In this document: positions 731 through 9,847 of the stretch, one piece after another
Position numbering within the stretch: position 1 is the stretch's first letter
Layout of the letters: each line of letters opens with the position of its first letter
Position numbers and translations under genes: made by a program
The notes under the pieces: generated by a model
The model's database searches: none
Seen by the model: only the letters and a program-made list of their open reading frames with translations
What the model was told of the DNA's origin: nothing
Origin: Fidelibacterota bacterium
Lineage (GTDB): Bacteria > Fidelibacterota > Marinisomatia > SCGC-AAA003-L08 > TS1B11
Assembly: GCA_022563485.1 (NCBI GenBank)
Contig: JADFNF010000001.1
Span: 1 to 60,534, forward strand
Direction of reading: 5' to 3'
Length of the DNA stretch: 60,534 nt

Positions 731-762
731 AAAAAAGCCCCCGCCGCAAGGGCAGGGGCTTT
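731..762 (-). terminator. Intrinsic terminator of the perR-puuD operon
   Basis: Read on the minus strand, AAAGCCCC pairs with GGGGCTTT around a GC-rich loop and is followed by six U residues (731-736 on the plus strand are A). It lies 29 bases beyond the stop of the PuuD-like gene and just upstream of the toxin-antitoxin promoter, so it separates the two units. Confidence 0.85.
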
Positions 763-790
763 CCAGATTGTGCGGGTCGGGAATGGGCGG

Positions 791-1555
791 TTACATGCCC
801 GGCACCTTCGCCGACTTCTTGTAGAGCCAGTACACCACGAGCCACCCGACGATGACGGCCAGGAACAGCCAGTAACGGCTGCCAGCCCCCACGGTGGTGG
901 TGTGGAAGTTGATCATGGTCCAGACCAGGGGCACCGACAGGTAGGTGTTGTGCTTGGAGCGCATCCCGGCCATGGCTGCCAAGGCGGCGTCGGGGGCTTC
1001 GCCGCTCTTGATAGCGGGAATGATCTTCTGCTGGGCGGGCCAGATGCGGAACCAGACGTTGAAGGCCATGATGGTGCCGAACAAGGCGCCGGTGTGGATC
1101 ACGTACCCGCGGTAGCCCCAACCGGCCCACCGCTCAAACAGGTAGATCACCAGCGAGATCAGAACCAAGCTGATAATTGTGGCGACGATGTCGTTCTTCT
1201 TCAGCACGGTCTTGTAAAGGATGTCGTAGATATAGACCCCCAGGAATACCACCGCCAGCATGACGAAACTGGCCAGACCCCAACCTGAACCCATCTCGAA
1301 CAGGGCCCCGCCGTGGTAGAAGATGATGAAGAGCAGCAGCACCCCGGTGATCCAGGTCCAGGCCGCGCCCCAGCGGAACCAGTACAAGGTCCGTGGTAAT
1401 AGTTCGGGAAATATCTTCTTTTTAACGTCGCCTTCCAACGTCGCCACAAAGGGTATATTGACAAAGTTGAACCAGTAAAGCAGCCCGATCCAGAGGATCC
1501 CAACCACAATGTGGATCCAGCGGAATAAGGCCTGAAGCAGCTCCATTACGTCCAT
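791..1555 (-). CDS. PuuD-like multi-spanning membrane protein without cytochrome c domain
   Basis: 254 residues with about six hydrophobic segments (roughly 8-28, 62-80, 93-112, 122-140, 152-172, 226-246). The start FRWIHIVVGILWIGLLYWFNF and later WAGWGYRGYVIHTGALFG and IWPAQQKIIP match the membrane domain of the urate hydroxylase PuuD/DUF989 family. Histidines 15, 81, 154, 202 and 218 lie in or beside membrane segments and could bind heme or quinone. Bona fide PuuD carries a C-terminal cytochrome c domain; here the protein stops after the last helix and has no CxxCH. It is the last gene of the peroxide operon, 118 bases after DUF3501, so I infer a membrane electron-transfer role rather than purine catabolism, but the activity is unknown. 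Confidence 0.75.
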   Translation of the reverse strand: MDVMELLQALFRWIHIVVGILWIGLLYWFNFVNIPFVATLEGDVKKKIFPELLPRTLYWFRWGAAWTWITGVLLLFIIFYHGGALFEMGSGWGLASFVMLAVVFLGVYIYDILYKTVLKKNDIVATIISLVLISLVIYLFERWAGWGYRGYVIHTGALFGTIMAFNVWFRIWPAQQKIIPAIKSGEAPDAALAAMAGMRSKHNTYLSVPLVWTMINFHTTTVGAGSRYWLFLAVIVGWLVVYWLYKKSAKVPGM

Positions 1556-1673
1556 GTTCGCTCCTCGTTAGCTTTTGTATGTGGAAATCAAACGGCTTGG
1601 TCGAAGCTAATATCTTCACGCACAACTTACCAAGCATAATGCATTGATGAAACGGCCATTCTCCCAGTCGAGG

Positions 1674-2261
1674 TTAGGCTGACTGCAGATCGCCCAGCAG
1701 GGACTCCCAGGTGTCGACGGCGATGGGCATTTCGTGCTGATAATCTCCCTGGGCGATACAAAACCGCGCCCCGGTAGCGGGGTCCTCCAACGCGTCCTGA
1801 ACGGCCGGTGAGATGACGAACCGGATGTAGTGTACCGAACTGATTTTGTCCTCCTCGCTGCGGCCTGCTTCAAACTGGGCGTAGACTTTCTGGTTGCCTA
1901 CCTGGAGCCAGAGGCTACGACCATCGGTGAGTCCCAAGAACTTGTGGAGCTTTTCCTTGATCTGCGCTGCGTCAGTGATCTCAATGAAGAGGGTGGCGCT
2001 GAGTTGGCCTTCATCCGGCAGCAGGGTGTTATACACGTCGATTTCCGCCTGGATAACATCGTCGTTGACCATCTGCTCGGCCCGCATCATTTCCTGGATT
2101 TGAAACACGACGGTTTGGCGGTCTTCGAACGTGAGTGAGATTTCAGGGCCCAGCTCGATTCGCCGGACTTGTTTGTGGGTCATGATATCCCGCCTGAATT
2201 CATCCCGGACCTTATCGTATTCGGCGATATCGATCAAATCATTGAGGGTAATTTTTTTCAT
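1674..2261 (-). CDS. DUF3501 family protein
   Basis: 195 residues starting MKKITLNDLIDIAEYDKVRDEFR, the usual N-terminus of the DUF3501 family. An upstream in-frame ATG would run into the preceding gene and adds low-quality sequence, so the ATG at 2261 was chosen. The family is uncharacterised but recurs beside rubrerythrin and a CCG-domain Fe-S protein, as here. It contains a central QVVNDDVIQ-like helical stretch (MMRAEQMVNDDVIQAEIDVY) and no metal-binding cysteine pair. It lies 29 bases after the Fe-S gene, consistent with one mRNA. Function unknown; I infer an accessory subunit of the same redox system. Confidence 0.85.
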   Translation of the reverse strand: MKKITLNDLIDIAEYDKVRDEFRRDIMTHKQVRRIELGPEISLTFEDRQTVVFQIQEMMRAEQMVNDDVIQAEIDVYNTLLPDEGQLSATLFIEITDAAQIKEKLHKFLGLTDGRSLWLQVGNQKVYAQFEAGRSEEDKISSVHYIRFVISPAVQDALEDPATGARFCIAQGDYQHEMPIAVDTWESLLGDLQSA

Positions 2262-2290
2262 TGCGGTAGTCTCGTTATTCCTTATTAATC

Positions 2291-3742
2291 TTAGTTCTGG
2301 TGGTCCAAACCGTAAGCGTGATGGATCAGCTCGATGGGATGCTGGCTGTTGATGCCGCCGCCGCTGGCCTGGTGGATCTGCATGCCTGCCAGGGTGCAGT
2401 CGGAGCACGTATGCTCAGCCGGTTTCCGGTTTAGGGCTTCCACCAGCTTGCCGGCAACTTTCATCGACTCTGCAAAGAACTCGGCTTTCATGCCCCAGCC
2501 GCCGTCCATGCCCGAGCATTTATCGATCATGTTGACGGTGGTGCCTGGGACCAGCCGCAGCAGGTCGCGGCTTTTGTAACCGCTCTTCTGGGCCTTAAGG
2601 TGGCATGAAAGGTGGTAGTTGATCTCGCCGAGCTCATGGACAAAGTCGTTCTTGAGTTTGCCTTCCTTGTGCAGCTGCATCAGGTATTGGGAGATATCCA
2701 GGGTGCTGGCGGCGACCTTGGCGACCTTTTCGGATAGCTGCGGGTCACCGTCGTTGAGATAGACGTAGTCCTGCCGCAGGGTCAGCGAGCAGGTGGGCGG
2801 ACCGGTCACTACGATCTGGTAACCTCTATCCACCCATTGAGCCAGTTCCTCTACATTAGGCCGGGCCTGCTTTTTAAAGGCGTCAAAATCGCCTGGGGAG
2901 AGCTGGGGCGCTCCGCAGCACTGCTGGGGCGGGACCCGCACCTCCACGAGGTTATGCTCCAATATTTCCACGGCGGCCTGGCCTACACTGGGGGCGTTGG
3001 CATTGGTATAGCAGGTGGTGAAGATCACCACTTTGCCGGCGGGTTCGGCGGGTGGGGCCGAGGCTTTGCGATGCTTCCGGAACCACTTGGTGAAAGTCTG
3101 GCGGTGGAAGTCGGGCAGCTCCCGGTGACGGCTGATGCCCATGATCTTTTCCATGAGAAAACGAAACAGTCCCAGCCGATTGACCCAATTGGTCATAGGG
3201 GCCAGGAGGGTGCCGATGCGGCCTGAGAAGTCGGTGTGACTCAGGAATACGTCGCTGAGTTTTTTCCCCCGGTCCTTGGTGCGAACGGCCTGGGCCCTGA
3301 GCATGAGGCGGGGGAAATCGAGCTGAAATTCATGGCCCTTGTCGGGGGTGTAGGGGCAGACGGATTCGCACAGTTTGCACTGGTAACACAGGTCCACCAC
3401 CCGCCAGGTCTCGGCATCGGTGAGGTCCTGGGGATCCCCGACAAATTCAGCCTCGATCGAAGCTTCACCTATTTGCTGTCCTTCGGGCAAGTTGAGGAAC
3501 TCGGTCCGTACCTCCTCGCTACCCACCCGTCCTGCCTGCACTGCCGTATCTCGTTTGCGTTGACCCTGTTTATCAAGAGCGTTAAACAGGGCCGGAAAAG
3601 AGGGACACAGGTTGAAGCACAGGCGGCAGCCGGTGCAGATGTCGTAGACCCGATTCATTTCCTGATCCAGCGATGCGGGATCCCAATATTCGGGCCGCTG
3701 AATATCGTAAAAAGTGTGGGTGATGTCAGTGTGGTCCAGCAT
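2291..3742 (-). CDS. GlpC/HdrD-like (4Fe-4S) and CCG-domain protein
   Basis: 483 residues. Two ferredoxin-type clusters are visible, C36xxC39xxC42xxxC46 and C119xxC122xxC125xxxC129, followed by two cysteine-rich CCG-type domains (QQCCGAPQ and KCSGMDGGWGMK, the second reading CSG) and a final CSDCTLAGMQ. This is the layout of GlpC/HdrD-type proteins that pass electrons to quinones or heterodisulfides. There is no GlpA/GlpB partner, so a glycerol-3-phosphate role is unlikely. Its neighbours are rubrerythrin and DUF3501, the recurring partners of this subgroup. I infer an electron conduit to the rubrerythrin or peroxiredoxin, possibly via the PuuD-like membrane protein. Confidence 0.85.
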   Translation of the reverse strand: MLDHTDITHTFYDIQRPEYWDPASLDQEMNRVYDICTGCRLCFNLCPSFPALFNALDKQGQRKRDTAVQAGRVGSEEVRTEFLNLPEGQQIGEASIEAEFVGDPQDLTDAETWRVVDLCYQCKLCESVCPYTPDKGHEFQLDFPRLMLRAQAVRTKDRGKKLSDVFLSHTDFSGRIGTLLAPMTNWVNRLGLFRFLMEKIMGISRHRELPDFHRQTFTKWFRKHRKASAPPAEPAGKVVIFTTCYTNANAPSVGQAAVEILEHNLVEVRVPPQQCCGAPQLSPGDFDAFKKQARPNVEELAQWVDRGYQIVVTGPPTCSLTLRQDYVYLNDGDPQLSEKVAKVAASTLDISQYLMQLHKEGKLKNDFVHELGEINYHLSCHLKAQKSGYKSRDLLRLVPGTTVNMIDKCSGMDGGWGMKAEFFAESMKVAGKLVEALNRKPAEHTCSDCTLAGMQIHQASGGGINSQHPIELIHHAYGLDHQN

Positions 3743-3846
3743 GGGGCTACCCCCTTGGGCTTGATCGATAATACAGCTAGTCGGTGCGCGAAGAAGGTTT
3801 GCCGCGGCGTGATTTGGATCCCACCGCGGCGATCACCTCCTGACGA

Positions 3847-4260
3847 TTAAAGCGAATCCAGAGTGGACTGGAATTTACCGGCATGGGACTTCTCAGCCCG
3901 GGCCAGGGTCTCAAACCACTCGGCGACCTCGCTAAAGCCTTCCTCGCGGGCGGTCTTGGCAAAACCGGGATACATCTCGGTATACTCGTAGGTTTCACCG
4001 GCCACGGCGGCTTTCAGATTGATATCGGTTTCACCGATGGGCAGGCCGGTGGCCGGATCACCGACTTCCTTCAGGAACTCCAGATGACCAAAGGCGTGCC
4101 CCGTTTCGCCATCGGCGGTGTTCTTGAACACCCCGGCGGCATCCGGGTAGCCTTCAATGTCCGCCTGGCGAGCAAAGTAGAGGTAACGCCGGTTGGCCTG
4201 TGACTCGCCGGCAAAGGCGTCTTTCAGATTGCTTTCAGTCTTGCTGCCTTTCAAGCTCAT
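3847..4260 (-). CDS. Rubrerythrin lacking the rubredoxin domain
   Basis: 137-residue ferritin-like four-helix protein. Di-iron ligands are in place: E19 ([10 protein letters not shown]), E52xxH55 (DGETGHA), E89 (AGETYEY) and E123xxH126 (ARAEKSHAG). Full rubrerythrins add a C-terminal rubredoxin domain with two CxxC knuckles; this one ends after the helical bundle, so electrons must come from another protein. By family it would reduce hydrogen peroxide to water. It sits third in the perR operon, 33 bases after the peroxiredoxin gene. Confidence 0.92.
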
Positions 4261-4293
4261 AATATACTCCTTATTGACGTTATGATATTGATC

Positions 4294-4752
4294 CTACAGC
4301 GCGTCGATAGCGCTGAATATATCGTCCATAGTGGCAGTATTCTCCCCCGGCGAGTCCTCCACATTGATCCACCGGATAGCACCACTTTTGTCGACAATGA
4401 ACTCAGCCCGGTCGCTGGTGCCGTTGCCCAGATCAACGCCGTAGTCCTTCGCCATCTTAAAGTCGATATCGCTCAGGACCGGGAAATCAATACCTCCCAA
4501 TGATTCGCAAAATGCCTTATGGCTAAACGAACTGTCACGGTTGATAGCCACAACGGCCGTATCCCGGCTTCTAAAGCCATCCAGGTTTTTGTTATACATG
4601 GCCAGCTGGAGCGAACAGACAGATGAGAAGTCAGCGTAGTAGAAAACAACGAACACGTTTTGCTTGTCATGATAATCCGCCAACGCAACGGGCTTGTCGT
4701 TGGTGTCTTTACTTGAGAATGCGGGGGCCTGGTCACCGATATTTAAGGCCAT
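4294..4752 (-). CDS. Peroxiredoxin (AhpE/Bcp-like) with altered active-site loop
   Basis: 152-residue thioredoxin-fold peroxidase of the AhpC/TSA family. The peroxidatic cysteine is C46 in FYYADFSSVCS. The usual Pro-x-x-x-Thr-x-x-Cys signature has become Tyr-x-x-x-Ser-x-x-Cys: Thr to Ser is common, but loss of the Pro is not. A second cysteine, C82, in HKAFCESLGG could resolve the sulfenic acid. The gene begins 3 bases after perR and is clearly co-transcribed with it. It would reduce peroxides in the cytoplasm. Confidence 0.88.
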   Translation of the reverse strand: MALNIGDQAPAFSSKDTNDKPVALADYHDKQNVFVVFYYADFSSVCSLQLAMYNKNLDGFRSRDTAVVAINRDSSFSHKAFCESLGGIDFPVLSDIDFKMAKDYGVDLGNGTSDRAEFIVDKSGAIRWINVEDSPGENTATMDDIFSAIDAL

Positions 4753-4755
4753 GTT

Positions 4756-5139
4756 TTATTGCTCCGTTTCTTTTGTTTGGCATTGGTGGCATTCGCCCCG
4801 GATTTCCAAGGCGTAGCCGGTAACTTTGAATCCGTAATCCTGAGGAATATTCTTGGTTATGTCTTCGAGTCGCAGGTGAACATCAAATATCTGTTGGCAG
4901 CGGATACAGCGAAAATGGTCGTGCTGGTCCATCTTGCCGTCGTACCGAACGTGACCATTGTCGAAGATCCGTTGAATGATCCCCCCATCGGCCAGCTGGT
5001 TGAGATTCCGGTAGACTGTGCCGAGGCTGATGCTGGGAATCTCTCTTTTGACCTGGTCGAAAATCCACTCCGCTGTGGGGTGACTCTCCGTACGCTGGAG
5101 GACGTTCAAAACGATATCTCTTTGCCTGCTGAATCTCAT
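4756..5139 (-). CDS. perR: PerR-type peroxide sensor (Fur family)
   Basis: 127 residues. An N-terminal winged helix (HPTAEWIFDQV, SLGTVYRNLNQL) is followed by a metal-binding domain. All five PerR regulatory-metal ligands have counterparts: H20, D67, H73, H75 and D86; the last is Asp as in PerR rather than Glu as in Fur. The structural zinc cysteines are C78/C81 and C117/C120. By homology with Bacillus PerR, Fe-catalysed oxidation of a metal-ligand His would release DNA. It is the first gene of an operon of peroxide-detoxifying proteins and has a Fur-type palindrome three bases before its ATG, so autoregulation is likely. No Shine-Dalgarno is visible, which fits a leaderless or very short 5-prime end. 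Confidence 0.9.
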   Translation of the reverse strand: MRFSRQRDIVLNVLQRTESHPTAEWIFDQVKREIPSISLGTVYRNLNQLADGGIIQRIFDNGHVRYDGKMDQHDHFRCIRCQQIFDVHLRLEDITKNIPQDYGFKVTGYALEIRGECHQCQTKETEQ

Positions 5140-5141
5140 AT

Positions 5142-5164
5142 TAACTAGGAATAATTCCTAGTTA
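5142..5164 (-). promoter_or_regulatory. PerR/Fur-type operator palindrome
   Basis: Two perfect 11-base arms, TAACTAGGAAT and ATTCCTAGTTA, flank a single central A. Length, odd centre and AT-rich core match Per/Fur boxes (7-1-7 type). It ends three bases before the perR start codon. A weak possible -35 (TTGTTG) lies upstream, which would place the -10 region inside the palindrome. It is the only such site I noticed in the window. Confidence 0.75.
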
Positions 5165-5316
5165 GTTTACGGCAACAATTTGCCGGGAGCAACCGTTTTA
5201 CGAGTTTTTATAAGGGCAATTAGCTGCAAAAAGATCGAGGCGGTTCCTTCTATGGAGGTCATGCGTCGGAGAGCATCCGGATCGGTTGATCCTGGCGAAG
5301 GTTGGTCGATCCGGGA

Positions 5317-7122
5317 CTATTTTTGCGGGAGGAACCGCCAGGAGAGGCTGTAGTGCGCAAGGCGACTGCCCGGAAGATAGCTGATCCCGAACACCCCCGG
5401 CGGCGCGTTTTGGATCGTAACACCTGTAAAGTTATAGATCTGGAATCGAAGTTCAAAGTTGGCCACTTTTATGCCGCCTTCCACCGTGGCCCATAGAGTG
5501 GAGGCAACTGTTTCCGTACGCAAAGGGAAGAGGGGACTGGTATCGGCGAACCGTGAATCGTACCACCGGAAAAACTCATTGTAGATAAAAGACGTCGAGA
5601 CTGTTAGAAACGGGCGGGCGCGGGCCCGGCGCAGGGGCAGGGTAAAGCTCAGGCCGGCAAAGGCGTTGATGCGGGTGGGAAAGATAAGTGAATCAGGGGA
5701 GCTGACCGCCGTGACGGTACCCTCTAGCCCCAGGACGTCTTCCCATAGCACCCAGTCCAGGGCCAGGCCCCCGGTGGTGGCGGAGCGTTGGTCCCCCGTT
5801 TTGAGGTAGGCCAGCTGGGTCACCGCGTAGCCCCAGGCACCGTCCCAGCGGTAGGCCAGGGTGCTGCGCCGCAGGAAGATGGGGCCGGGCAGCCAGGCGG
5901 TGGAATCCAGGGTGACCCGTCGATTACGGTGGGGATAGTCAAGGAAACTGGTGGCTTCGGTCGTAAAGGAGAGAGTGCCGGGGGACAGCCCCAGGGCCAG
6001 GCGGCCCTCGGACTTGAGTTGTCCATCAATGGATGCGAGACCGCCGTAAGCTGCCCACCTCCCAACCGTCCAGTGAACGCCCAGGCGGCCGTGGACCAGA
6101 CTGCGAGGTTGATCACCCAGGGCCTCATCGACAATCCAGCGCTGCTTGGTTCGCCAGTGCGCCGCGAGCCGCCAACGGGGAGTCAGGTAGTAGGCTACAT
6201 TGCCCATGACCCACAGACTCAGGCTGCGGCGGCTCAAATGGTTGGTCCCGAGCCCATCGGTGGTGGTGGCCAGGTCACTCACCATGGTCGCTCCCCGGAG
6301 CTGTCCCGCCCAACGGGTGGAGGCAATGGCTAACTGGGCGCCGTGGGCCCAGGTCTGGTTGAGTCGCCTGTCCGCTGTCAGGGCCTGTAAGGAATCCAGG
6401 AAGGGCAGTCCCACCTGTTCGCGTTGATGCAGCAAGGTGTAGCTGAAGGTTGCATGGGATGCCAGGCGGCGTTGATAATCGAGGAGGTAATTTTGGAGCA
6501 CGTTGCGGGTTGGTTGGGTTAGTTCTGGGCCGGCCAACCCGTACCGGCCCGGGTGGTTGCGGCCCTGCCCGGCGAGCATCAGGTTGCGGGCCGTGTCAAG
6601 TCGCGCCACGGCCCCGATCTGCACATCCCGATACCGGTAGTCTCCCTGATCCCAAAAAAAGTAGGTCTGGTTGGCCCGGGTGAAGTCCTGGAGGGGTACG
6701 ATGCGAAACGATAGGTCATCAGGGTCCGCGCCCGCCAAAGGACTCTGGGTATCTGTTACCGATGGTCCAAGGACGTCATCGGCTACCGTGGCTGACGGGA
6801 TCACGGCGGACAGGATTGGCTGCCCTAGACTGCCATCGAGGAAGACGGCGCCCAACTGGATGTCAGTTGGCACGAAAGGGTTGGCGGCGGTGGCGGCCAG
6901 ATCCGAATGGCCCCATTCATCCCAGGGTAGGTGCAGGCGGAACGGTTTGGATTGATCCTGCAGGGATGGCGCCAGGCGGGCAAGCCAGGAAATGGCCGGG
7001 GCGCCGAGGATATCGGCGGCCTGACTGCTGTCCGCTTCCTGGGCCGCCAAGGGGGTGAACAGCACACCGATGCCCACAGGTAGCATCAACCGCAGGAACT
7101 GTTTCAAGACGGTAGTAAGCAA
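5317..7122 (-). CDS. Putative outer-membrane beta-barrel protein
   Basis: About 600 residues with no recognised catalytic motif. The segment LKQFLRLMLPVGIGVLFTPLAAQ is a good signal peptide ending in a signal-peptidase site, followed by EADSSQ. The remainder alternates hydrophobic and polar residues with many aromatic-ended strands (TYFFWDQGDYRYRDVQIGAVARL, WRLAAHWRTKQRW, FELRFQIYNF, HYSLSWRFL), as expected of a transmembrane barrel. The long frame opens further upstream (ATG 7338 and 7224), but those starts bury the signal peptide and the first would overlap the exoribonuclease gene by 74 bases; the TTG at 7122 fits best. Its ligand is unknown. It is probably co-transcribed with the upstream exoribonuclease. 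Confidence 0.65.
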   Translation of the reverse strand: MLTTVLKQFLRLMLPVGIGVLFTPLAAQEADSSQAADILGAPAISWLARLAPSLQDQSKPFRLHLPWDEWGHSDLAATAANPFVPTDIQLGAVFLDGSLGQPILSAVIPSATVADDVLGPSVTDTQSPLAGADPDDLSFRIVPLQDFTRANQTYFFWDQGDYRYRDVQIGAVARLDTARNLMLAGQGRNHPGRYGLAGPELTQPTRNVLQNYLLDYQRRLASHATFSYTLLHQREQVGLPFLDSLQALTADRRLNQTWAHGAQLAIASTRWAGQLRGATMVSDLATTTDGLGTNHLSRRSLSLWVMGNVAYYLTPRWRLAAHWRTKQRWIVDEALGDQPRSLVHGRLGVHWTVGRWAAYGGLASIDGQLKSEGRLALGLSPGTLSFTTEATSFLDYPHRNRRVTLDSTAWLPGPIFLRRSTLAYRWDGAWGYAVTQLAYLKTGDQRSATTGGLALDWVLWEDVLGLEGTVTAVSSPDSLIFPTRINAFAGLSFTLPLRRARARPFLTVSTSFIYNEFFRWYDSRFADTSPLFPLRTETVASTLWATVEGGIKVANFELRFQIYNFTGVTIQNAPPGVFGISYLPGSRLAHYSLSWRFLPQK

Positions 7123-7264
7123 GGCACCGCGAGGCAGGACTGCTTCATTGAACGCTGTGGGACGTGGCGGCGCACCTGACCGATCCTGAGCATGCTGGCG
7201 CGCGCCCGGCCGGAAGCCTAGCATGCGCGCCGGGTACTGGCCACCAATGAGATTGTAGCGCTCT

Positions 7265-8224
7265 TCACTGGCGATAGTTCTTCCAAAGGGAGGTGCGAAA
7301 ATGATTTCTGGTGTTGGTGAACGGCTGATCACTGTCATCGCTGTTGAGCTCCCGAAACATCAGGTCCAATCTCCCATCCAGAGTATCGATGAAGTGTGTC
7401 AGCAGGGCTTCGGGAAATTTTGGTGGCCGGGGGGAGCCGTCCTTTGGGGAACCGTGATGGGCGAGTAGGATATGTTCTAACCGGGTCGTGAGCTCGGTTG
7501 GAAAATCGCCGATCTCATGGATGGCCTCGAGCAGAATGTCCCGGCTTAGAACCACGTGGCCCATGAGTTGGCCCGCCTCGGTGTAGCCTCCCTGCAGCTC
7601 GGTAGAAATACCGCGGAACTTGCCAATATCATGGAGCAGTACACCCGCCACTAGAAGATCCTTGTCGATACGGGGGTAATGCTCAGCCAACCTTACCGCC
7701 AGGCCTCCGGTGGACACCAGGTGCAGAAGGAAGCCACCTCGTTCCGGATGGTGGTGGGACACCGATCCCGGAAGGACCAGCACACTTTCTTTGTGGGTTT
7801 TGAAGATGTGCCGCAACAGTCGTTTCAACGGCTTGTTCTTTACACCGCTGATGAGCACCCTGAGGGTATCCCACAGCTCGCGGGGGTCTTCTTCGATGCT
7901 GGGAATCAGCAGCTCTTCCCGAAAACCGTACCGGCTGTAGCGCTCCTTGGTGGCCTTGGCCACGTGCGTGCAGTTCAGTTGCAGGATGTCGTGATACTTT
8001 TCCACGACCCCCTTGACGGCGATGGCGTCCCCCGATTCAAACTGGTTATGGAAGTGGTCCACATTGTCCCAGACCTTGCCATGAATGCGGCCGGTGGCGT
8101 CCTGAAGGACCAGGTCCAGATAATAGTCGCCCGCCTTGGTGGTCCGCAGGTGCTTCTCCAGGCAGAGGACAAAACCTTGAACCGCGCTGTTCTCCTGATA
8201 GTCTTTAATCGGCGTTAACTTCAC
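7265..8224 (-). CDS. YhaM-type 3-prime to 5-prime exoribonuclease (OB + HD)
   Basis: 319 residues. An N-terminal OB-fold (about 10-90, VQGFVLCLEKHLRTTKAGDYYLDLVLQD) precedes an HD phosphohydrolase domain with GGFLLHL, LLHDIGKFRG and ILLAHHGSPKDG. That combination is diagnostic of the YhaM/CBF1 family, which degrades RNA and single-stranded DNA from the 3-prime end and uses Mn or Co. All HD metal ligands appear intact. The gene is divergent from the NlpC gene cluster, with 215 bases between. Confidence 0.88.
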   Translation of the reverse strand: MKLTPIKDYQENSAVQGFVLCLEKHLRTTKAGDYYLDLVLQDATGRIHGKVWDNVDHFHNQFESGDAIAVKGVVEKYHDILQLNCTHVAKATKERYSRYGFREELLIPSIEEDPRELWDTLRVLISGVKNKPLKRLLRHIFKTHKESVLVLPGSVSHHHPERGGFLLHLVSTGGLAVRLAEHYPRIDKDLLVAGVLLHDIGKFRGISTELQGGYTEAGQLMGHVVLSRDILLEAIHEIGDFPTELTTRLEHILLAHHGSPKDGSPRPPKFPEALLTHFIDTLDGRLDLMFRELNSDDSDQPFTNTRNHFRTSLWKNYRQ

Positions 8225-8439
8225 AGGAGAGAAATTTGAGACTGGAACTAGGTTGAAACAAGCTTCATCCCTAGGTTTGTCCCGATTGAGTCCGATCGGC
8301 CATCCCTTGATGGACGCTACGATAAGCTGTGTCTTCCTTGTTAATATGGTCTCGTCGTGAAATGTCTTGGACAGCCCCGTCTGACAAAATAATTTAACCG
8401 CTTATATGAACCTGCCAAGCCATAGGACAGTTTTCAAAG

Positions 8440-9255
8440 GTGAGTGAGTCACGTATCCGCTCGGCTATGGTCGTGAACACCTCAGTGGCGAATGTCTATG
8501 CGGAGCCATCCTTTGCCTCCGAAATCGTGACCCAGGCCATCCTCGGAGAAACCCCGGCAGTCCTGGACCAGAGGGGGAAGTGGTTTCAGCTGGAGCAGTG
8601 GGACGGCTACCGGGGCTGGGTCTATCATTTTTCTCTGGCCAAAAATCCCCAATTCCTGGTCAAGGGAGAATGGATATTGGTCAATGTTCCGACAGCCCCG
8701 ATCCGGGAAGAGCCCAACGACACGGCCCCACCCTTTCGGGACGCGGTCTTCGGCGTGAGATTGCCCCTGTTGGGCCGTCAGGAACCCTGGGTCCAGGTGG
8801 CGCTCCCAGATGGCCTGTCAGGTTGGTTGCAGAACGAACCGTTGGCCCTGACCGGTACCCGGCGCGACCAGGTGGTGCAGATCGCCAGGCGGTTCCTCGG
8901 GGTGCCTTATATGTGGGGTGGGAAGACCCCCAAAGGGTTTGACTGTTCAGGGTTCGTGCAGACCTGCTTCAAGGCAGTGGGGGTCCATTTACCCAGGGAC
9001 AGTTACCAGCAGAACGAGTTTGGGGACCTGCCGGCCGTGATGATCAATGACGCGCAGCCAGGGGACCTGTTGTTCTTCGGTGATCAGGGTCAGCGGATCG
9101 CCCATGTGGCCATCTCCCTCGGGAGTGGGGAGATCATCCATGCAGCGGGCTGGGTGAGGACCGACAGCCTGGAGGCAGCCAACACCCGCTATAACCAGCC
9201 TCTGCGGGGCAGTTTCACAATCGGCAGAGATGTAACCGGGCTGATCAATGCATGA
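8440..9255 (+). CDS. SH3-domain NlpC/P60 peptidase (YkfC-like)
   Basis: 271 residues with a GTG start. Two SH3-like bacterial domains (about 10-65 and 78-135) precede an NlpC/P60 cysteine peptidase with C169 (GFDCSGFV), H222 (IAHVAISLG) and H234 (IIHAAG). The layout resembles YkfC/dipeptidyl-peptidase VI, which cleaves gamma-D-Glu-diamino acid bonds in muropeptides. No signal peptide is evident, so cytoplasmic muropeptide recycling is likelier than wall hydrolysis. It opens a chain of overlapping genes running to 12815. A possible promoter, TTGGAC then AATAAT with a short 15-base spacer, lies near 8370-8396. Confidence 0.87.
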   Translation: MSESRIRSAMVVNTSVANVYAEPSFASEIVTQAILGETPAVLDQRGKWFQLEQWDGYRGWVYHFSLAKNPQFLVKGEWILVNVPTAPIREEPNDTAPPFRDAVFGVRLPLLGRQEPWVQVALPDGLSGWLQNEPLALTGTRRDQVVQIARRFLGVPYMWGGKTPKGFDCSGFVQTCFKAVGVHLPRDSYQQNEFGDLPAVMINDAQPGDLLFFGDQGQRIAHVAISLGSGEIIHAAGWVRTDSLEAANTRYNQPLRGSFTIGRDVTGLINA

Positions 9256-9847
9256 GCGGGGAATGAAACTGATCCATGACCGTGGCAACGGGCGCACCCA
9301 TAAGCGCGGCAATGGGCAAAGCAACGGCGCGGGCATCTTGAACCGTTACGTGCTGGTGCTTAACCAGAGTTATGAACCGGTCATGGTCACCAGTGCTAAA
9401 CGGGCGGTGATTCTTATGCTTCTCGACAAAGCCGAGGAGGTAGTGCATTATGAAGAGGTCATTCATTCGGTCAGTTGGCAGATGCCCTTGCCCAGTGTGG
9501 TGCGCCTGGCCCGGTACGTCAGGACTCCCAATAAGGATGTGGTCTTGACGCGTAAAAATATTTTAAAACGGGACAACCACCGCTGCCAATACTGTGGACG
9601 CAGCTCCGTGCCGCTGACCCTTGATCATGTAATTCCCAGGCATCGGGGTGGACCGGACGCATGGGACAACCTGGTGGCGGCCTGCCACCCCTGCAACGTT
9701 CGCAAAGGTAACCAGACCCCTCACGAGGCCGGTATGCCCCTGCTGCTGCACCCGCATAAACCTTCGCGGATCACCTATTTTCAAAAGTTCGTGCGCAAGC
9801 ATCAGGATGCCTGGCGTCCCTACCTGTTCATGGAGCCGAAAGCTTGA
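9248..9847 (+). CDS. HNH endonuclease
   Basis: 199 residues. The C-terminal HNH domain reads CQYCGRSS...LTLDHVIPRHRGG...WDNLVAACHPCNVRKGNQTP, with two zinc CxxC knuckles (CQYC, CHPC) and catalytic DH. The N-terminal part, VLVLNQSYEPVMVTSAKRAVILMLLDKAE, is the usual lead-in of the stand-alone HNH proteins widespread in free-living bacteria. Its physiological substrate is unknown. It overlaps the previous gene by 8 bases and the trpS start by 4. Nothing suggests an intron or a restriction system. Confidence 0.88.
   Translation: MHERGMKLIHDRGNGRTHKRGNGQSNGAGILNRYVLVLNQSYEPVMVTSAKRAVILMLLDKAEEVVHYEEVIHSVSWQMPLPSVVRLARYVRTPNKDVVLTRKNILKRDNHRCQYCGRSSVPLTLDHVIPRHRGGPDAWDNLVAACHPCNVRKGNQTPHEAGMPLLLHPHKPSRITYFQKFVRKHQDAWRPYLFMEPKA

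Follow-up and report, generated by a model that had tools for sequence, protein, structure and literature searches.

Six genes on the minus strand of the window analysed here, the whole stretch of 60,534 nucleotides of contig JADFNF010000001.1, probably form a PerR-autoregulated peroxide-defence operon, in which rubrerythrin (Rbr), the Fe-S protein RFO and a DUF3501 protein would act as an interchangeable cassette and a short PuuD-like membrane protein as a separate component of the locus. That rubrerythrin, RFO and DUF3501 are linked has been described before: this trio, with a rubredoxin-less Rbr, is the "aerobic-type rubrerythrin" system of Cardenas, Quatrini & Holmes 2016 (PMC5114695), and the operon is a further case with extra genes. 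It shares with the published system the three adjacent families, their conserved order, the rubredoxin-less Rbr and a GlpC-like RFO. It differs by PerR with its own operator, a peroxiredoxin (Prx), the PuuD-like membrane gene and the swaps with KatG or Prx described below; in a text search of PMC5114695 the terms PerR, membrane and urate had zero occurrences. New here are the exchange of cassettes, the apparent autoregulation through a single operator and the placing of short DUF989 proteins at the PerR locus.

The trio is also present in protist mitochondria (PMC7050145) and in hot-spring metagenomes, with OxyR as a neighbour in Sideroxydans (PMC7852563), and a peroxiredoxin is located near the trio in Acidihalobacter (PMC7760498). 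What DUF3501 does and where aerobic-type rubrerythrins draw their electrons from are questions that concern bacteria, archaea and the mitochondria of some protists.

Organization of the operon and its operator

The genes at 791–5139 encode, from perR onward, PerR, Prx, Rbr, RFO, DUF3501 and the Urate_ox_N protein, with intergenic gaps of 3, 33, 104, 29 and 118 bp. All six proteins scored over the curated cut-offs of their Pfam families. An intrinsic terminator at 731..753 of the minus strand consists of a GC-rich hairpin (753-737) and a T-run. Gene calls, Pfam matches, palindrome and hairpin confirmed the original prediction of a six-gene minus-strand set that extends from a Fur-type palindrome to a terminator. 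The survey of related genomes that it had proposed found the gene order again: PerR-(Prx)-Rbr-RFO-DUF3501 was constant in about 25 relatives. The source genome is a 2.09-Mb assembly of 245 contigs with a completeness of about 90%, and its named relatives are Candidatus Neomarinimicrobiota. Immediately 3' of the terminator a pair of a ParE-like toxin (PF05016) and an RHH/CopG-type antitoxin was seen on the minus strand (170-689). A stem GCCGCGG...CCGCGGC at 3801-3830, between the rubrerythrin and RFO genes and without a T-run, is possibly an mRNA processing or stability element.

The regulator is a Fur-family protein of 127 aa (4756..5139, minus strand; PF01475, 98 bits). On reading the sequence, its His/Asp/Cys metal positions are of the PerR-type, including the Asp in FDVH, and a Cys4 Zn site is present. 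The Asp in this motif, judging from Bacillus subtilis PerR, is what we take to separate PerR from Fur. The top NCBIfam match was a PerR model, with a score under its strict cut-off. Directly upstream of perR lies a PerR-type operator, TAACTAGGAATTATTCCTAGTTA, a perfect 11-1-11 palindrome at 5142..5164. Its inner 21 bp, AACTAGGAATTATTCCTAGTT at 5143-5163, adjoin the perR start and are likewise a perfect palindrome, of which 0 were expected in shuffles of the window. A motif of about TAAvTAGkAATNATTmCTAbTTA was located directly 5' of perR in many relatives, at trio, katG and peroxiredoxin loci alike, and the operators of the window, L110, L113 and L125 are perfect 23-bp palindromes. Because shuffle values of AT-rich upstream regions taken singly are often weak, the argument for the operator relies on the recurrence of one sequence. 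A sigma-70 promoter scan yielded no site at perR.

With at most one mismatch the operator occurs once in the 2.09-Mb genome, ahead of this operon; therefore PerR looks like a local autoregulator of the operon. The PerR-type control that had been proposed is thus supported by the Fur-family protein together with the conserved operator. PerR would sit on the single operator at 5142-5164, and peroxide would inactivate PerR and so turn the operon on.

Exchange of peroxidase cassettes at the PerR locus

In Neomarinimicrobiota the place after PerR and its operator is taken by any one of three modules, i.e. the trio, KatG (cluster c15, PF00141) or peroxiredoxin. The PerR-KatG and PerR-Prx loci were reached via the short PuuD-like gene in relatives without DUF3501. 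The exchange is seen in two loci of the same genus, L050 with the order c3-c2-c8-PuuD-PerR-Rbr-RFO-DUF3501-c21-c22 and L093 with c3-c2-c8-PuuD-(reversed Prx)-PerR-KatG-c21-c22. The identities of the shared proteins were 97% for c3, 86% for c2, 90-95% for c8, 90% for PuuD, 82% for PerR, 86% for c21 and 89% for c22. At larger divergence the same slot was occupied by KatG in L103 and by peroxiredoxin in L115 and L119.

Because three unrelated peroxidase modules share one PerR-controlled slot, the trio would be a functional peroxide-scavenging unit, and this comparison of loci is the strongest evidence available here. The exchange of trio and KatG between sister species lends independent genetic support to the trio as a self-sufficient peroxide scavenger. 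At the level of genomes, an avoidance between trio and KatG was not significant (2 shared genomes with about 3.7 expected), so the swap at the locus alone is used as evidence. Rbr, RFO and DUF3501 would work as one swappable, H2O2-reducing cassette.

Rubrerythrin, RFO and DUF3501

The rubrerythrin of 137 aa (3847..4260, minus strand; PF02915, 102 bits) is of the aerobic type and consists of the ferritin-like domain only, without a rubredoxin domain. Its di-iron ligands E19, E52, H55, E89, E92, E123 and H126 are conserved in at least 97% of 94 homologues, and its best PDB matches were rubredoxin-less rubrerythrins; the di-iron protein would be the one that reduces peroxide. A search for the rubredoxin family in the source genome and five trio-bearing relatives gave no match, while the control was positive in 7 of 14 reference genomes; absence from the source genome taken alone is weak evidence as the assembly is about 90% complete. 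The claim that this rubrerythrin has no rubredoxin of its own was borne out for genome and relatives alike.

RFO (2291..3742, minus strand) is a GlpC-like Fe-S protein with CCG (PF02754) and 4Fe-4S domains. As in GlpC and HdrD, there are two CCG domains and two Fe-S sites of four Cys each. Eight ferredoxin-type cysteines and C244, C275, C276, C318, C380, C409 and C449 are present in at least 97% of 99 homologues, whereas C446 is kept in only half of them. Therefore, neither CCG domain has a complete five-Cys set of the HdrB-type. RFO further differs from GlpC and HdrD by scores under both GlpC equivalog cut-offs (276.4 versus 278 bits and 189 versus 279.9 bits) and by the lack of GlpAB neighbours; as the original prediction had stated, there is no GlpAB in the operon. 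A scan of viral contigs with RFO detected no relatives.

The DUF3501 protein has 195 aa (1674..2261, minus strand; PF12007, 208 bits). Its predicted model (pLDDT 93) had a sole structure match, PDB 3fjv, with which it shares the fold and which is a crystal structure without an assigned function. DUF3501, which has no obvious cofactor site, may serve as a small helper or adaptor. A match to the family was also obtained in Sulfolobus acidocaldarius. The family was present in 30 of 245 genomes of the phylum and adjoined RFO, normally together with Rbr and PerR, in all examined but G081 and G082. These two genomes carry divergent DUF3501-like genes (28-29% identical; L058 2196-3862 and L059 7411-8693, respectively) directly 3' of PerR or PerR-Prx; rubrerythrin is not among the neighbours, and neither genome has a close RFO. 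They are exceptions to the published rule of co-occurrence and a hint of DUF3501 acting without RFO, so that DUF3501 is not strictly a subunit of RFO or Rbr.

Variant arrangements were observed in other loci. L198 (SAR324) has a rubrerythrin-DUF3501 pair at 8453-9585 with no RFO within the fetched stretch, and the ORF ahead of the pair (7779-8189) resembles desulfoferrodoxin/superoxide reductase by eye. L214 (Acidimicrobiaceae, 5695-9552) is arranged as PerR-KatG-Rbr-DUF3501, and no RFO was detected in the fetched stretch. L157 (Acidobacteria, 4202-9579) reads PerR-Rbr-KatG-[gap]-RFO-DUF3501. An apparent KatG-RFO fusion in L157 was rejected, as a run of N in an assembly gap had been read through; true fusions were absent from the fetched loci.

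The short PuuD-like membrane protein

The last gene (791..1555, minus strand) encodes a membrane protein of 254 aa with the Urate_ox_N/DUF989 domain (PF06181, 143 bits). It has about 7 long predicted helices, no Cys, no CxxCH and no cytochrome c; its predicted model (pLDDT 79, pTM 0.80) had no PDB match at E ≤ 0.001. The urate oxidase PuuD (Doniselli 2015, PMC4562309) has the DUF989/Urate_ox_N membrane core in common with the window protein, but has 8 helices, a C-terminal cytochrome c and a place in purine clusters, all of which differ in the window protein. Short DUF989 proteins with 4 helices, no cytochrome c and a different gene context were reported by Doniselli et al. with no function assigned (PMC4562309). 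The PF06181 proteins of the phylum fall into two classes, long and short, with about 280 versus about 130 bits. Two histidines, His15 and His218, do not vary across short, long and distant members, and two others, His154 and His202, have been lost from the distant members; Asn203 is also invariant and common to the short and long paralogs.

Of 59 loci with the short class, 45 had a peroxide gene next to it (17 trio, 14 KatG and 14 Prx), as did 30 of the 35 with at least 4 kb of flank on both sides. The gene also stands beside PerR in KatG or Prx loci without RFO. Conversely, L032 and L033 have the trio without a PuuD-like gene within the family of the window, and PF06181 had no match in G009 and G010, relatives from the f1 family, or in trio genomes of other classes. 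Outside the phylum PF06181 was over the cut-off in 14 of 50 trio genomes and in none of the other 36. Judged from gene neighbourhoods, the link of the short PuuD-like protein to peroxide defence is real, but it is a link to the PerR locus, not to RFO. The same comparison of loci thereby ties the short DUF989 family to peroxide defence.

In all six tested genomes with the long paralog, OHCU decarboxylase was encoded at most about 4 kb away from it. Around the paralog in two loci examined by eye, the genes looked like purine degradation; therefore the long class is likely a urate enzyme. The long paralogs (L060-L076, L130-L136) have no CxxCH in their own frame despite these apparent purine-degradation clusters, and may pass their electrons to a separate cytochrome.

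Electron supply to the peroxidases

RFO has been suggested as a rubredoxin substitute, i.e. as the electron donor of rubrerythrin (PMC5114695). Because rubredoxin was not detected in the genome or in five relatives, RFO, or ferredoxin/FNR, is a plausible donor, and RFO would fill the place of the missing rubredoxin. The ferriperoxin of Hydrogenobacter thermophilus, like the window protein a rubredoxin-less rubrerythrin, is a peroxidase required for aerobic growth (PMC3317640). In vitro it received electrons from NADPH and ferredoxin:NADP reductase without RFO (PMC3317640), so the donor may be something other than RFO and the ferredoxin/FNR route stays open; RFO is unlinked in H. thermophilus (PMC5114695). 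If rubrerythrin were reduced by a soluble NAD(P)H-ferredoxin reductase or a ferredoxin, RFO and DUF3501 might instead repair, load or protect the di-iron site. The FNR-dependence of ferriperoxin and the occurrence of Rbr and DUF3501 without RFO nearby in L198 and L214, as well as in Thermoproteales (PMC5114695), speak for such a role. Yet the two ferredoxin-type Cys sets and the CCG cysteines of RFO, conserved as described above, are expected of an electron carrier and Rbr has RFO alongside in almost all trio loci, which makes this reading rather improbable.

The original prediction went further in that electrons were thought to flow from a membrane quinol or cytochrome pool through the PuuD-like protein, acting as HdrE does for HdrD, via RFO to rubrerythrin and peroxiredoxin. 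Its step from RFO to rubrerythrin is plausible and already published (PMC5114695). The part upstream of RFO found no support in its proposed form, since the PuuD-like protein is independent of RFO: the gene stays beside PerR with Prx or with KatG, which requires no such chain, G009, G010 and other classes have the trio but not this gene, and the 36 trio genomes mentioned above gave no PF06181 match over the cut-off. In addition, thioredoxins are on hand for Prx. On the other hand, most members of the window's family, as well as two further families (L049, L054), have the PuuD-like gene directly 3' of DUF3501. In L172 (Nitrospirales) 3 bp separate it from the rubrerythrin frame that follows, and 7 of the 14 trio genomes with PF06181 outside the phylum, from Blastocatellia, Nitrospirales and Acidimicrobiia, have it at most 9 kb from DUF3501. 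Taken with the resemblance of RFO to GlpC/HdrD and the invariant His15 and His218, these arrangements leave a dedicated membrane donor of RFO conceivable, and we regard it as unlikely. Even less credible is that the gene encodes a urate oxidase placed beside a peroxide operon by chance. The Pfam name Urate_ox_N and its score suggest that function, yet the short protein has no cytochrome c domain or CxxCH and adjoins peroxide genes in most loci, and OHCU decarboxylase, the close neighbour of the long paralog, is absent from G000 (the source genome), G004 and G008.

Thus we favor the view that the short PuuD-like protein belongs to the PerR locus as a separate, constant part, that it probably has a haem-binding redox or membrane-protection role, and that it is not an obligatory donor of RFO. 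More specifically, and only tentatively, it might be a hitherto unrecognised haem-b membrane part of the PerR-controlled peroxide defence that serves whichever peroxidase fills the locus, be it trio, KatG or Prx. Such a part could drain electrons from the respiratory chain and limit the formation of peroxide, or it could supply the peroxidases with reductant.

The peroxiredoxin (AhpC/TSA, 152 aa; 4294..4752, minus strand; PF00578, 103 bits) would be a second scavenger adjacent to the trio and fed by thioredoxin. Because the source genome encodes two strong thioredoxins, Prx requires no donor from the operon, contrary to the earlier claim that it depends on operon-supplied electrons. The catalytic Cys46 and the distal Arg are conserved, as is Cys83 within the family. 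In the PxxxT/SxxC motif Ser, Cys46 and the distal Arg are kept, while Pro is replaced by Tyr (FYYADFSSVC). At the Pro position four of six family relatives have Phe, Val or Ala, and Pro is retained in L032 and L033.
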